In this document: piece by piece, positions 43,283 through 49,452 of the stretch
Numbering within the stretch: the stretch's first letter is position 1
Layout of the letters: each line of letters begins with the position of its first letter
NCBI RefSeq assembly: GCF_014023125.1
Contig: NZ_CP048914.1
Location: 772,698-836,697, forward strand
Reading direction: 5' to 3'
Origin: Candidatus Xianfuyuplasma coldseepsis
Lineage (GTDB): Bacteria; Bacillota_I; Bacilli_A; Izemoplasmatales; Izemoplasmataceae
Length of the DNA: 64,000 nucleotides
Notes under the pieces: generated by a model
What the model saw: the letters and a program-made list of their open reading frames with translations, nothing else
Told to the model about the DNA's origin: nothing
The model's database searches: none
Position numbers and translations under genes: made by a program

Positions 43283-44623
43283 TTACATTACTTTCAAGTA
43301 GCGTTTGATTTCCCATTCTGTTACAGATGTCCGGAAATCATCCCATTCTTGTTGTTTTGCCTCGATAAACTTTTCAAAGACATGTGCACCCAAAGCCTCT
43401 TTTACTACGTCGTTTTTCTTAAGTTCTTTGACAGCGTCTTTTAGATTTTCTGGTAAATTGACAATGCCCATTGCTTCGCGATCATCACGAGATAGTTCAT
43501 ATAAGTTAATATAAACGCGATCAGTAGCTTCTAGTTTCTTCTCAATTCCCTCTAATCCACTTGCTAAAATAGCTGCTAATGCTAAGTAGGGATTTGCACT
43601 TGGATCGACACTACGGATTTCAGTTCTAGTAGCACGTCCTTTTTTCGCTGGTATACGAATCATTGCACTGCGGTTCGCATCACTCCAAGAAACGTAGCAA
43701 GGTGCTTCATATCCTGGTACTAGACGTTTATACGAGTTTACAGTTGGGTTTGTTACAGCAGTAAATCCACGTGCATTTTTCATAATTCCTGCAATCCATT
43801 GTTTTGCAACATCACTTAATCCAATTTCACCTTTTGGGTCATAAAATGCGTTATTTCCATCTTTATCACTTAGTGAACAGTTGGTGTGCATCCCAGAACC
43901 ATTGATTTCAGAAATTGGTTTTGGCATAAATGTCGCATGTAATCCATGTCTTTTCGCAACATTTTTAATGACTAACTTAAATAATTGAAGATTATCACTT
44001 AACCGAACGACATCATTATACTCAAAGTTAATTTCATGTTGTCCGGGTGCTACTTCATGATGTGCAGCTTCCATAGTGAATCCAATTTTTTCGAGTTCTA
44101 GTACAATATCCCGACGACAATCTTCTGCCCCATCTACTGGAGCAAGGTCGAAATACCCACCATTATCATTAAAATCAAGTGTTGGTTCACCGTTTGCATC
44201 TAATTTGAATAAGAAGAACTCGGGTTCCACACCAACGTTAAATGCACCAAATCCAAGAGACTTCATTTTTTCGACGTTGCGTTTTAGAACATAACGTGGG
44301 TCGCCTTCGAATGGTTCTCCGTTTGGTAGATAGATATCACAAATCAAAATTCCCACTTTACCATACGTTGTCTGTTCCCACGATGAGATCAACCATGAGT
44401 CATAATCAGGATATAAATACATATCCGCTTCCTGAATACGAACAAATCCGTCAATGGATGATCCATCAAACATTACCTCATTGTCTAAAGCTTCTTCCAG
44501 TTTATTTCCTGGAATTTCAACGTTCTTAATAACCCCGTTGATGTCTGTGAAACACAAACGAACGTATTTCACATTTTCTTCTTTGGCATTCTTTAAGATT
44601 GCCTCTTTGGTCCATGTTGCCAT
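43283..44623 (-). CDS. glnA: glutamine synthetase, type I
   Basis: GlnA joins ammonia and glutamate to glutamine. The 446-aa length and the absence of a Tyr adenylylation loop point to the short GSI-alpha form of Firmicutes. Motifs are [48 protein letters not shown], and the ATP/catalytic [16 protein letters not shown] strong AAGGAGG lies upstream of the ATG. Transcription should start at a perfect consensus promoter and pass an ANTAR-type antiterminator leader (44643-44722), so expression probably depends on the adjacent ANTAR protein. Confidence 0.98.
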
Positions 44624-44642
44624 AATTTCCTCCTTAAAATAT

Positions 44643-44722
44643 AAAAAATGATGCCAAAAAATGCTGCGTCAGCATTGACATCATTTAATTTCTATTCCTT
44701 GTTTTACGAGACGTCCTTGTCT
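44643..44722 (-). promoter_or_regulatory. ANTAR-type two-hairpin antiterminator leader of glnA
   Basis: The minus-strand leader starts with a hairpin AGAC-AAGGAC-GTCT (44709-44722). Its six-base loop has A at position 1 and G at position 4. About 29 nt later GTC-AATGCT-GAC (44668-44679) gives a second hexaloop with the same A1/G4 pattern. The second hairpin is mutually exclusive with a terminator: ATGATG and AATGCTG pair with CAGCATT and CATCAT (44646-44686), followed by T6. This is the recognised architecture of ANTAR-bound antiterminators. The ANTAR gene is the next gene upstream. Confidence 0.78.
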
Positions 44723-44730
44723 ACAAACCA

Positions 44731-44759
44731 ATTATAAATAAGGGGGTACTAAATGTCAA
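44731..44759 (-). promoter_or_regulatory. perfect consensus SigA promoter for glnA
   Basis: On the minus strand TTGACA (44754-44759) and TATAAT (44731-44736) are separated by exactly 17 bases. The -35 overlaps the last codons of the ANTAR gene. The start point falls near 44722-44724, so the first ANTAR hairpin forms at the very 5' end of the transcript. Confidence 0.88.
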
Positions 44760-45300
44760 TCTTATTTTCGATGATAAGGTTTACAAGACGACGTTTTGAA
44801 ACCCGTAAATCCATTGCTTTTTTCTGAATAAATTGGTGGGAATCCTCTTCAGATAGCCCTTTATTCATTAACACTCGTTTTGCCTTATTTGTTAGAAGTA
44901 TTGTTTCTAGACGTTCTTTTGTATTGTCATTTACAGATTGTAAGCGACGAATTTCTTTCATGTATTTCGCTACCAATTTTATTGTAACAGGTAATTCTAC
45001 TTCCATCGTGATTTCATTCACTAAGTTGAAAAACAAATCATGATAGACATTATACAGTTGTCCAATGGATGGGGTATTGGTAATGTAGATAATTGGTATC
45101 GCTTGTTCGATAATCAGTCGTTCAATAAAGATCGGTTTGTTTGGGACATCGTTGCGATGGGACAAAATGATTGCATCGTATTGCTTTACGGTATTGCGTT
45201 GAAGATGGTTTACGAAATCACCCTTGATTCCGTGTTGATTTAGCAATCGTTCAATTTGTTTGTCAAGATGTCCATTTCCGTTGATAATTGCGACTCGCAT
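44749..45300 (-). CDS. ANTAR-domain RNA-binding antiterminator (NitR/NasR-like)
   Basis: A 183-aa protein with a divergent receiver-like N-terminal domain (1-115) that lacks the usual acidic phosphorylation pocket. A coiled linker and a C-terminal ANTAR domain (about 128-178) follow, with RLETILLTNKAKRVLMNKG and RVSKRRLVNLIIE as the three-helix pattern. ANTAR proteins bind pairs of hexaloop hairpins and prevent termination. The gene lies immediately upstream of glnA, whose leader has such hairpins, as in clostridial nitrogen regulators. AAAGGAGTGATC precedes the ATG. The signal sensed is not visible. Confidence 0.88.
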   Translation of the reverse strand: MRVAIINGNGHLDKQIERLLNQHGIKGDFVNHLQRNTVKQYDAIILSHRNDVPNKPIFIERLIIEQAIPIIYITNTPSIGQLYNVYHDLFFNLVNEITMEVELPVTIKLVAKYMKEIRRLQSVNDNTKERLETILLTNKAKRVLMNKGLSEEDSHQFIQKKAMDLRVSKRRLVNLIIENKIDI

Positions 45301-45332: not shown

Positions 45333-46574
45333 TTAGTATGGTAATGGATATTTGGTTGTTAAAGTACTAACTTGGGAACGTACTCCTTCTAAAATGGTGT
45401 CGTCTTCTGGGTTCATCAGTGTATCGTAGATTAGTTTTGCAACAACTTTCATGTCGTCTTCGTTAAATCCTCTTGTCGTTACTGCAGGTGAACCGAGACG
45501 TATTCCTGAAGTAATGAATGGTTTTTCGGTATCATTTGGTACGGTATTCTTGTTGCAAGTTATATGAACGCGGTCCAGTAGTTGTTCCGCATCTTTTCCC
45601 GTTAATCCCGTTAATGATTTCACTTCGACTAAAATTAAATGATTATCGGTTCCACCCGAAACTACATGGAATCCAAAATCCTGCAGCTCTTGTGCCAATA
45701 CTTGAGCATTCTTAGTGACTTGAGATTGATACGTCTTAAACGATGGTTCAAGCGCTTCTTGGAATGCAGCTGCTTTGGCAGCAATCACGTGCATTAATGG
45801 TCCTCCTTGAATTCCTGGAAAGACGACACGATTGATTTGTTTATACAGTTCAAAACTATTGGTTAGAATAATGCCCCCACGAGGACCTCGCAATGTTTTG
45901 TGGGTGGTGGATGTGACAATATCCGCGTAATCGCATGGGTTTTGGTGTAAACCAGCGGCGACTAGGCCGGCAATGTGGGCCATGTCGACCATAAATTTGG
46001 CATCCACTTTATCACAAATTTCTTTGATTCGCTTAAAATCAATTGCTCGAGGATAGGCACTTGCACCAGCAACAATTAATTGTGGTTTCTCCTTTAATGC
46101 AAGCCGTTCTAGTTCATCATAATCAATTTGCTCGGTCGTTCTGTCGACTCCATAACTAACAAAGTGATAATCAATCCCACTAAAATTTAGGGGGTGTCCG
46201 TGGGTTAAATGTCCTCCGTGATCCAAACTCATACCAAGAACCGTATCTCCTGGTTTTATGATTGCACGGTATGCACCCATGTTTGCAGTGGAGCCACTGT
46301 GAGCTTGTACGTTCGCATATTTAACCTTAAACAGTTTTTTTACGCGATCTCGGGCTAGATTCTCGGCCATATCGACAAACTCACAGCCGCCGTAATATCG
46401 ACGTCCTGGATATCCCTCCGCATATTTATTGGTTAAGACACTTCCTTGTGCTTCTAAAACCGCTTCTGAGACAAAGTTCTCCGATGCGATTAATTCAATA
46501 TGTGATTGTTGTCGTTGTTTTTCTAGTTCAATTGCTTCATACAACGCTTGATCTTGTTCTTGTAATTTACTCAT
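45333..46574 (-). CDS. glyA: serine hydroxymethyltransferase
   Basis: GlyA is a PLP enzyme converting serine and tetrahydrofolate to glycine and methylene-THF. I chose the ATG at 46574 because GGAGG lies nine bases upstream and it begins [15 protein letters not shown]; it gives 413 aa, the normal length. The PLP lysine lies in [13 protein letters not shown] (about residue 225). [12 protein letters not shown] and [15 protein letters not shown] form the active site. It overlaps the pyrR end by 8 nt. It works with folD and fhs, also in this window, in one-carbon metabolism. Confidence 0.98.
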
Positions 46575-47085
46575 TTGGTGATTCCTCCAACTGATAGATA
46601 TATACGCCTGGTTGCTCATGAAACTCAACACGTACTTTTTCACTGGCACTTGTTGGCATATTTTTACCAACGTAGTCCGCTCGTATTGGTAATTCTCTGT
46701 GTCCCCGATCAATTAGTACCGCTAACTGGATCTTTGCAGGTCGACCCAAATCAATGATTGCATCCATACTTGCTCTGGCAGTTCTTCCCGTATACAAGAC
46801 ATCATCAACAATAATGACAACATTGCCTGTAAGGTTCACGTCAAGTTTGGTAAAATTCTCATTTTTGACATCATCGCGGTATCCAGATATATCCAATGAG
46901 TACACCGGGATTTCAACTTCTTCAATTGCCTGAATGTTTTCTTGAATGGCTTCTGCGAGAGGAACCCCGTTTCGTAATATACCAACGAGTACGACATCAT
47001 CTAAGTTATTATTGCGTTCAATGATTTCATGAGAGATGCGACGAATCGTTCGAATCATCTTATCTTCTTCAATTAGTTTACGCAT
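46567..47085 (-). CDS. pyrR: bifunctional pyr operon regulator / uracil phosphoribosyltransferase PyrR
   Basis: From the ATG at 47085 (AAGGAAGTG six bases upstream) the protein is 172 aa, near the usual 180. It has the phosphoribosyltransferase PRPP loop [18 protein letters not shown] (about residues 90-107), [12 protein letters not shown], and the [16 protein letters not shown] segment typical of PyrR. PyrR binds pyr mRNA to attenuate transcription and has UPRTase activity. No pyr genes or PyrR-binding loop are seen nearby. It lies before glyA, an unusual partner. PyrR versus a plain phosphoribosyltransferase rests on this sequence pattern. Confidence 0.92.
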
Positions 47086-47900: not shown

Positions 47901-49259
47901 TTAGAATCCGGCGGTTGCTTTTACGACAAAGTATACAACAAACACAACGGATAATACCCACATTTCAATACTAACTTCTTTATGACGTTTCGTTATCAAC
48001 ATTGTGAGTGGATAGAATACAAATCCGACAGCAATACCTTCAGCGATTGAGTAGGTTAATGGCATTACTAAGATAACTAAGAATGCAGATACGGCAATAA
48101 CTGTATCGTTCCAATCGATGTCTTTTAACTGAGATGCCATTAATACACCAACCATAATTAATGCTGGAGCAGTAACGGCTGCAGTAACAACACTTAGTAA
48201 TGGACTAAAGAACATGAATACGAAGAAGAATAGTGCTGTAAATACAGAGGTTAATCCTGTTCGTCCTCCAACTTCAACACCAGCTAGTGATTCGATGTAT
48301 GAAGTAGTAGAAGATGTTCCGGAAATTGCTCCAATTACAGTTGCCGTTGAATCAGCTAACAATGCTTTACCACTGTCTTTTAATTCTCCAGTTTCATCCA
48401 ATAATCCTGCGCTATGTCCTACAGTAACAAGTGTTCCTGCAGTATCGAAGAAATCAATAAACAATAATGCAAAGATTACAATGAAGAATTGGAAATCCCA
48501 AACACCATCAGTGAACCCTTTAGTGAATTCAAAGAAATACGGTGCAGGTGGCGCATCAACAATTCCTGTAGGTAATCCTACTTGTCCAAAGATAATTCCA
48601 ACAATTGAAGTAATGACAATCCCGTAGAGGATCGCTCCACGAATTTTTAACACGTACAATCCGACTGTAACGAGTAATCCAAATACAGCAAGAAGTACAA
48701 CAGGGTCTGATAAATCACCAAGACCAACTAATACGGCAGGATTATCAACAATTAATCCAGCATTTTGGAGTCCGATAAAGGCGATGAAGAACCCAATACC
48801 AGCACCAATGGCCAATTTCAAGTTTTTCGGAATCGCATTAATGATTCGTTTCCGTAATCCTGAAAGACTAAGAAGAACGAACAATAATCCAGAGATTAAG
48901 ATTCCAGCGAACCCTTGCCAAGGTGAATACCCAAGTGTTACAACAACGGTCCATGTGAAGAACGCGTTCATTCCCATACCAGGTGCTAATGCAACTGGGT
49001 AATTTGCATACAACCCCATGATTAATGTTCCGGCGATTGCTGCGATTGCTGTTGCGGTGAAGATTGGTCCCCATTCCAAACCTGTGAGACTGATCATTGT
49101 CCCTGTACCTGTTCCATCATCAACTAATCCTTGTAAAGTAGTTGGATTAACGAATAAGATGTACGCCATTGCCAGGAAGGTCGTTAGACCAGCTAAGAAC
49201 TCGGTTTTAACCGTTGTACCGTGCTCTTCCAACTTAAAAAAGTTCTTTAAAAAATCCAT
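47901..49259 (-). CDS. NCS2/AzgA-type purine (guanine/hypoxanthine) permease
   Basis: A 452-aa membrane transporter from the ATG at 49259 (GGAGG about nine bases upstream). It has the AzgA/PbuG pattern: EFLAGLTTFLAMAYILFVNP, YPVALAPGMGMNAFFTW, FFDTAGTLVTVGHSAGL and ISGTSSTTSYIESLAGVEVGGRTGL, and about 13 hydrophobic segments. These proteins import adenine, guanine or hypoxanthine by proton symport. The upstream purine riboswitch of the guanine type supports guanine/hypoxanthine. The gene ends near a shared terminator. Confidence 0.92.
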   Translation of the reverse strand: MDFLKNFFKLEEHGTTVKTEFLAGLTTFLAMAYILFVNPTTLQGLVDDGTGTGTMISLTGLEWGPIFTATAIAAIAGTLIMGLYANYPVALAPGMGMNAFFTWTVVVTLGYSPWQGFAGILISGLLFVLLSLSGLRKRIINAIPKNLKLAIGAGIGFFIAFIGLQNAGLIVDNPAVLVGLGDLSDPVVLLAVFGLLVTVGLYVLKIRGAILYGIVITSIVGIIFGQVGLPTGIVDAPPAPYFFEFTKGFTDGVWDFQFFIVIFALLFIDFFDTAGTLVTVGHSAGLLDETGELKDSGKALLADSTATVIGAISGTSSTTSYIESLAGVEVGGRTGLTSVFTALFFFVFMFFSPLLSVVTAAVTAPALIMVGVLMASQLKDIDWNDTVIAVSAFLVILVMPLTYSIAEGIAVGFVFYPLTMLITKRHKEVSIEMWVLSVVFVVYFVVKATAGF

Positions 49260-49340
49260 TAAAAAATCCTCCAATTTTTGTGTGTTTGGTTGTATTATAC
49301 ACAATCTAAAAGAGGAGAATATCCTTAAAAAATAAAAAAC

Positions 49341-49416
49341 GGATTATAGTCCCAACGTTTACGGTGTCGGGGTAGAAACAATCGAACCCTATTATCGATC
49401 ATATATAATACCAACC
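49341..49416 (-). promoter_or_regulatory. purine (guanine-type) riboswitch
   Basis: On the minus strand the hallmarks of the purine aptamer occur in order: a P2 stem ATCGA/TCGAT, GTTTCTACC (J2/3), a P3 stem with loop CCGTAAA, and GACTAT (J3/1). The C in GACTAT is the specificity base and indicates guanine/hypoxanthine rather than adenine. P1 (GG-T-ATT with AATCC) is short and imperfect. It lies about 80 bases upstream of the purine permease ATG. A T6-A-T6 tract follows P1 directly. Confidence 0.9.
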
Positions 49417-49423
49417 AGTTTTA

Positions 49424-49452
49424 AGTGTATCGAAACTTGAACAATTGTTCAA
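49424..49452 (-). promoter_or_regulatory. promoter of the riboswitch-permease unit with 16-bp palindrome
   Basis: On the minus strand TTGAAC (-35) and TACACT (-10) are 17 bases apart, placing the start just before the aptamer. The -35 is embedded in a perfect 16-bp palindrome TTGAACAATTGTTCAA (49437-49452), which could be an operator. Confidence 0.5.

Follow-up and report, generated by a model that had tools for sequence, protein, structure and literature searches.

The glnA gene in the 64-kb window analyzed here (the entire stretch of DNA from Candidatus Xianfuyuplasma coldseepsis) is very probably controlled by an antitermination leader that responds to an ANTAR protein encoded immediately upstream. 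The leader tracks the ANTAR gene across the family, its first hairpin (HP1) covaries, the RNA-contact residues of the protein are kept, and a second leader of the same kind precedes the amt gene; together, these observations make antitermination the best reading of the locus. The sequence-only reading, which had proposed a default-off leader and ANTAR antitermination of a nitrogen gene, thus finds support both in the elements themselves and in their co-occurrence among related genomes.

Organization of the glnA locus

On the minus strand of the window, glyA is followed by the ANTAR gene and then by glnA, with the glnA ATG at 44623 (Table 1); the true start of glyA is probably located further downstream than the listed ORF start. 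The glnA promoter (TTGACA-N17-TATAAT, 44759-44731) matches the sigma-70 consensus at 12 of 12 positions and ranks at the top of 15 promoter-like sites in 3 kb, in line with its initial description as a perfect consensus. The accompanying statement, that the ANTAR gene ends inside the -35 box, had to be corrected: the box lies wholly within the final codons of the gene (I-D-I), and the promoter spacer contains the stop codon (44751-44749). The Lys-Ile-Asp conserved at the C-terminus of the ANTAR protein shares bases with the -35 box (AAGATTGAC; window 44749-44762, minus strand), and its invariance may be due to the promoter rather than to the protein. Elsewhere in the window, a purine riboswitch aptamer (Rfam RF00167, 75.5 bits; 49327-49428, minus strand) precedes a permease ORF (47901-49304) whose product resembles transporters of the xanthine/uracil type.

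Table 1. Features of the glyA-ANTAR-glnA locus (window coordinates)
Feature	Coordinates	Strand	Evidence
glyA, serine hydroxymethyltransferase, conserved upstream neighbor of the ANTAR gene	45333..46712	-	PF00464
ANTAR gene (NitR/EutV/AmiR-like); product with a receiver-like domain lacking phospho-Asp, a coiled coil, and an ANTAR domain	44749..45300	-	Pfam PF03861, AF2 model, PDB matches
-35 box TTGACA, within the last ANTAR-gene codons	44754..44759	-	direct reading; TTGAC invariant across 16 aligned leaders
-10 box TATAAT, spacer 17 nt	44731..44736	-	direct reading; nearly invariant in the family
HP1, AGAC-AAGGAC-GUCU, first ANTAR hexaloop (A1, G4), at the predicted transcript 5' end	44709..44722	-	direct reading; covariation, 30 leaders of four families
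Linker HP1-HP2, 28 nt	44681..44708	-	direct reading
HP2, UGUC-AAUGCU-GACG, second ANTAR hexaloop (A1, G4), overlaps terminator 5' arm and apex	44667..44680	-	4-bp stem in all four genus genomes
Intrinsic terminator hairpin	44646..44686	-	fold; paired base stem across 18 leaders
Terminator U tract	44643..44648	-	direct reading; conserved
glnA ribosome binding site, AAGGAGG	44629..44635	-	direct reading
glnA, type I glutamine synthetase, 446 aa	43283..44623	-	TIGR00653, 556.8 bits (above cut-off); PF00120

Transcription is predicted to start at about 44724, with HP1 following directly. HP1 and the second hairpin (HP2) each consist of 4 bp, compared with the minimum of 3 bp in ANTAR systems, and carry hexaloops with A at the first and G at the fourth position (A1 and G4); the outermost pair of HP2 is a U-G wobble. 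HP2 is located inside the terminator hairpin (AAAUGAUGUC-AAUGCU...AGCAUU..GGCAUCAUUU), so that the two structures are mutually exclusive. Accordingly, the RNA elements originally proposed, namely, the two hexaloop hairpins (AAGGAC and AAUGCU), the overlap of the second one with the terminator arm, and a terminator that the transcript meets ahead of glnA, are all present at this locus. The minimum free energy of the leader is -22.7 kcal/mol (z = -3.2), a stability equaled by none of the 200 shuffled sequences. The predicted stability of the terminator far exceeds that of HP2 (-17.1 versus -1.6 kcal/mol), and hence the unbound RNA should terminate. Within the 64 kb, on both strands, this is the single place where two A1/G4 hexaloops with stems of at least 4 bp occur with the second one over a terminator arm, and when the leader is dinucleotide-shuffled, 2 of 5000 sequences show the same combination of two hexaloops and a terminator. 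A simple terminator scan did not pick up this terminator, probably, because a 4-nt bulge interrupts the stem. Rfam yielded no match at the glnA leader at the gathering threshold; two weak thermometer-like matches from a permissive scan of related loci fall on GC-rich leaders and were taken as chance.

The ANTAR protein

The protein encoded upstream of glnA is an ANTAR RNA-binding regulator as judged by its Pfam match (PF03861, 32.3 bits versus the 27.3 cut-off), and its AF2 model (pLDDT 88) has the best Foldseek matches in the PDB to EutV with RNA (6ww6), EutV (6wsh), and AmiR (1qo0). Four RNA-contact residues of EutV, K149, E160, M172, and R175, are identical in the window protein and invariant among 17 homologs; the positions of R142, R168, N173, and R177 differ. 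EutV Tyr164, which stacks on the loop G4, is represented in the 17 homologs by an invariant His, as in AmiR.

No Pfam receiver-domain match was detected in the protein. The position aligned with the receiver Asp is occupied by S (T, S, or H in the homologs) and the acidic pair is absent, so that the phosphorylatable Asp of EutV-type regulators is missing and phosphorylation is an unlikely mode of activation. A search for a PII protein that was positive in 13 of 14 control genomes found none in the genome that contains the window. Given the Asp-less receiver-like domain and no PII found, the signal probably arrives via a partner protein or a ligand, perhaps, glutamine synthetase itself.

Conservation and co-inheritance of the leader and the ANTAR gene

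The genome containing the window (1.96 Mb, a single contig) carries one ANTAR gene; the comparison includes, as named relatives, Candidatus Izemoplasma sp. and another Tenericutes MAG. Among the 49 genomes of the family, 17 encode the ANTAR protein, and in every one of these, its gene is followed directly by glnA across a gap of about 114-135 nt. The leader, always located between these two genes, is found in each of the 17 ANTAR genomes and in none of the 32 others, and the promoter precedes the terminator in 17 of 17. A covariance model of HP1 and the terminator (R1), built from 16 leaders of the window's family and two of another family, produced 17 strong matches (E<=2.6e-7), one per ANTAR-bearing genome; because R1 was trained on the family leaders, their recovery is expected, and the informative part is that there is no strong match in the other 32 genomes, where the top match has E=0.012. 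The leaders of genomes without the ANTAR gene were checked by a motif scan as well, with results agreeing with those of R1. A second R1 match in the genome that contains the window (L092 2208-2267, E 0.0145) lies at a convergent terminator, where a sugar-transferase gene ends, and was taken as chance.

Both parts of the leader bear the marks of conserved RNA structure. Across 30 leaders from four families, 99.1% of the HP1 cells are paired, doubly changed cells number 15 versus 4.0+-1.6 in shuffles, the covariation value is 0.475 versus 0.263+-0.032, and A1 and G4 of the loop are nearly invariant. The base stem of the terminator is conserved and covarying across 18 leaders (98.3% paired, 5 doubly changed pairs). 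In the alignment of 16 leaders, the window row has an erroneous first flanking base (TAG for AAG), and this alignment served to assess conservation in the other columns.

The dual hairpin is absent from all 14 family genomes that have glnA but lack the ANTAR gene, and in 8 of these, glyA is still adjacent to glnA. This retention, along with the glyA-ANTAR-glnA order that the window family has in common with the sister family f3, makes joint loss of the ANTAR gene and its RNA target the simplest account. Mapped on the glyA tree, the presence and absence of the ANTAR gene involve at least 3 changes, so that the co-occurrence rests on about three events rather than on 49 independent genomes.

In family genomes that lack the ANTAR gene, the glnA promoter is preceded by a LacI/cre-like operator, AAAACGTTTACAT, exact in loci L040, L041, L043, L044, L045, and L053 and with 1-2 mismatches in L042, L046, and L049. 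It is absent from 30 of 30 ANTAR-glnA leaders and, among ANTAR genomes, precedes three amt promoters. This distribution possibly reflects a swap of regulators.

Register of the second hairpin and linker length

The HP2 of the sequence-only reading is real in the window and is present in all four genomes of the genus, but it is genus-specific; the HP2 typical of the family lies about 9 nt upstream. In most of the family and in family f10, HP2 has the form AC-AANGGY-GU or a close variant, with the loop itself making up the foot of the terminator 5' arm; the family form AC-AAUGGU-GU is the one displaced by about 9 nt from the HP2 of the window genus. The stem comprises only 2-3 bp in most of the family; in family f14, it reaches 6-8 bp (GAAC-AAUGGG-GUUC). 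The window genus shows erosion of this older stem, and all four of its genomes have a new 4-bp hairpin, UGUC-AA[UA]GC[UA]-GAC[AG], in the downstream register; the other 13 leaders of the family lack it. It is unlikely, albeit conceivable, that the genus HP2 is instead the older family loop (AAUGAU, 44685-44680) with an eroded stem, the GAC at the terminator apex being kept for another reason. A1 and G4 of the older loop are indeed kept in all four genus genomes, although the same bases serve the terminator stem; against this, the older stem is wholly unpaired in the window and forms no more than two pairs (one of them G-U) in the genus, whereas the new GUC-AAUGCU-GAC hairpin has 4 bp throughout the genus and is absent in the other 13 leaders.

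The linker between HP1 and HP2 is 28 nt in the window and 22-28 nt in the genus. In the eut leaders, the linkers are 5-12 nt, and lengthening to 14 nt impaired EutV (PMC3369931); a later survey of ANTAR RNAs used linkers of 2-25 nt (PMC8164766). The window linker exceeds both ranges. A short linker matters for EutV but is not established as a family-defining trait.

A second likely leader upstream of amt

The single amt gene of the genome that contains the window is preceded by a leader (L101:2831-2771, minus strand; G000:C1, about 508.6 kb) in which a promoter is followed by HP1 AUAAAC-AACUAG-GUUUAU, 29 nt of linker, and HP2 CGAC-AAAGGU-GUUG, which overlaps a strong terminator; the leader has a fold z of -4.3 and is likely a second ANTAR leader. 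The loop of this HP1, AACUAG, has A1 but U4 in place of G4. In a genome of a sister genus (G027), the amt leader (L093:616-693, plus strand) has two canonical loops, UAAAC-AAGGGC-GUUUA and UGAC-AAUGGC-GUUA, on stems (AAAC/GUUU) unlike those of the glnA leader. The regulon predicted from these leaders likely consists of glnA and amt. Another amt leader, in genome G028 (L106), has one hexaloop left, as if two repeats recombined, and the amt frame there looks broken.

A different element in the sister family

In f3, the ANTAR gene, the promoter, and HP1 are retained, and the terminator is replaced by another element, which lies between HP1 and glnA and comprises an extended Shine-Dalgarno sequence (AGAAAGG), a covarying hairpin with GAGUGC-N3-GCAUNGUC, about 12 nt, and AUG (loci L021-L026, L028, L031, L032, and L073-L080). 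The hairpin shows 46 doubly changed cells versus 14.8+-3.4 and a covariation value of 0.614 versus 0.281+-0.032, and f3 genomes that lack the ANTAR gene have no such element or a degraded one. No credible Rfam match was found in the scanned f3 loci. The arrangement suggests a translational output, and the element is possibly a new structured RNA involved in translation control. The notion that the f3 Shine-Dalgarno sequence is the second ANTAR hexaloop was rejected as unsupported by covariation (24 of 500 shuffles scored as high).

Proposed mechanism and alternative explanations

Under the proposed mechanism, RNA polymerase would start at the strong promoter immediately 5' of HP1 and, by default, would stop at the terminator about 80 nt on, so that glnA expression stays low. 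The active ANTAR protein, produced from the adjacent gene, would bind HP1 on the emerging RNA and then HP2; with HP2 held in the folded state, the terminator 5' arm would be withdrawn and transcription would enter glnA. This active state most likely reflects nitrogen shortage, and the amt gene of the genome is probably under the same ANTAR protein. We infer binding, antitermination, the direction of control, and the signal, with nitrogen indicated by the target genes and by analogy with the Clostridium NitR.

Two other accounts of the locus have to be weighed. The hairpin could be a mere end-of-operon terminator of the glyA-ANTAR unit that is leaky for glnA, with coincidental hexaloops and the ANTAR protein acting elsewhere. 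A terminator 3' of the ANTAR gene would have such a position, and a single hexaloop says little, given that single GACAANGNNGTC motifs number 29 genome-wide versus 15 in the reversed control. However, the location of the promoter ahead of the terminator in all 17 genomes, the HP1 covariation in four families, the loss of the leader along with the ANTAR gene, and the lack of other ANTAR genes in the same genome render this account highly improbable. Alternatively, the ANTAR protein could bind the leader and act by RNA stabilization, by an effect on translation, or by repression of glnA. Sister family f3, where the same HP1 is followed by the Shine-Dalgarno-hairpin element without a U tract, indicates that other ANTAR outputs seem to exist nearby, but in the window family, the strong, conserved terminator with its U tract overlaps HP2, and the glnA ribosome binding site is outside the hairpins; binding without antitermination is therefore also very improbable. 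The points that go against antitermination are the 28-nt linker, the short HP2 stems in the family, the amt HP1 loop without G4, and the small number of independent losses.

Comparison with known ANTAR systems

The glnA leader is probably a variation on the NitR-glnA theme, now in Candidatus Izemoplasmataceae, and this kind of switch is already known. In Clostridium saccharobutylicum, nitR is located downstream of glnA, and an antisense RNA is also involved. In contrast, the ANTAR gene in the window lies between glyA and glnA, and the promoter is nested in its 3' end. NitR has been described as an ANTAR protein that antiterminates GS/GOGAT genes when nitrogen is limiting (PMC6316151). Compared by description, the two systems have in common an ANTAR regulator tied to glnA and a proposed antitermination of ammonium-assimilation genes; in the window, what was observed is the adjacency of the ANTAR gene to glnA and the leader. 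A 2012 paper predicted ANTAR RNAs ahead of glutamine synthase and ammonium transporter genes, with the same RNA architecture and the same kind of target as here (PMC3369931).

With EutV/EutW of Enterococcus faecalis, the window protein shares the REC-like domain, the coiled coil, and the ANTAR domain (PMC3369931, PMC8934654). The dual A1/G4 hexaloops, the position of the second hairpin over the terminator, and the main RNA-contact residues are shared as well, whereas the linker length (28 nt versus 5-12 nt in eut), the replacement of Tyr164 by His, the lack of a phosphorylatable Asp, and the lack of an adjoining dedicated kinase set the window apart. The similarity to AmiR of Pseudomonas aeruginosa, the partner of AmiC, extends to the fold (1qo0) and the ANTAR domain, including the His at the Tyr164 position; the AmiR receiver is not phosphorylated either. 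Unlike the AmiR system, there is no AmiC-like gene adjacent to the ANTAR gene in the window, and the target is glnA, not an amidase operon. The system differs from what is known in the 28-nt linker, the HP2 shift of about 9 nt, the aspartate-less receiver-like domain, the gene order, and the fact that no PII gene was found. In the collection of papers searched, none names both Izemoplasma and ANTAR.

Implications

A broader scenario, which we put forward tentatively, is that of an old glyA-ANTAR-glnA module, the RNA output of which might have been rebuilt more than once, as antitermination in Izemoplasmataceae, with the second hexaloop moved by about 9 nt in the window genus, and as translational control in the sister family via an undescribed Shine-Dalgarno-hairpin-AUG RNA; the receiver-like domain might sense nitrogen without phosphorylation or PII, possibly, through contact with glutamine synthetase. 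The leaders, with their long linkers, two HP2 registers, and a terminator-less sister family, form a natural set that tests how widely the linker-length and hairpin-position rules of EutV apply. The locus would provide a compact example, extending over the family, of glutamine synthetase under ANTAR control in the Mycoplasmatota lineage. With one ANTAR gene, glnA and amt as the two likely targets, and no PII found, nitrogen control in this organism may rest on one RNA-binding protein.
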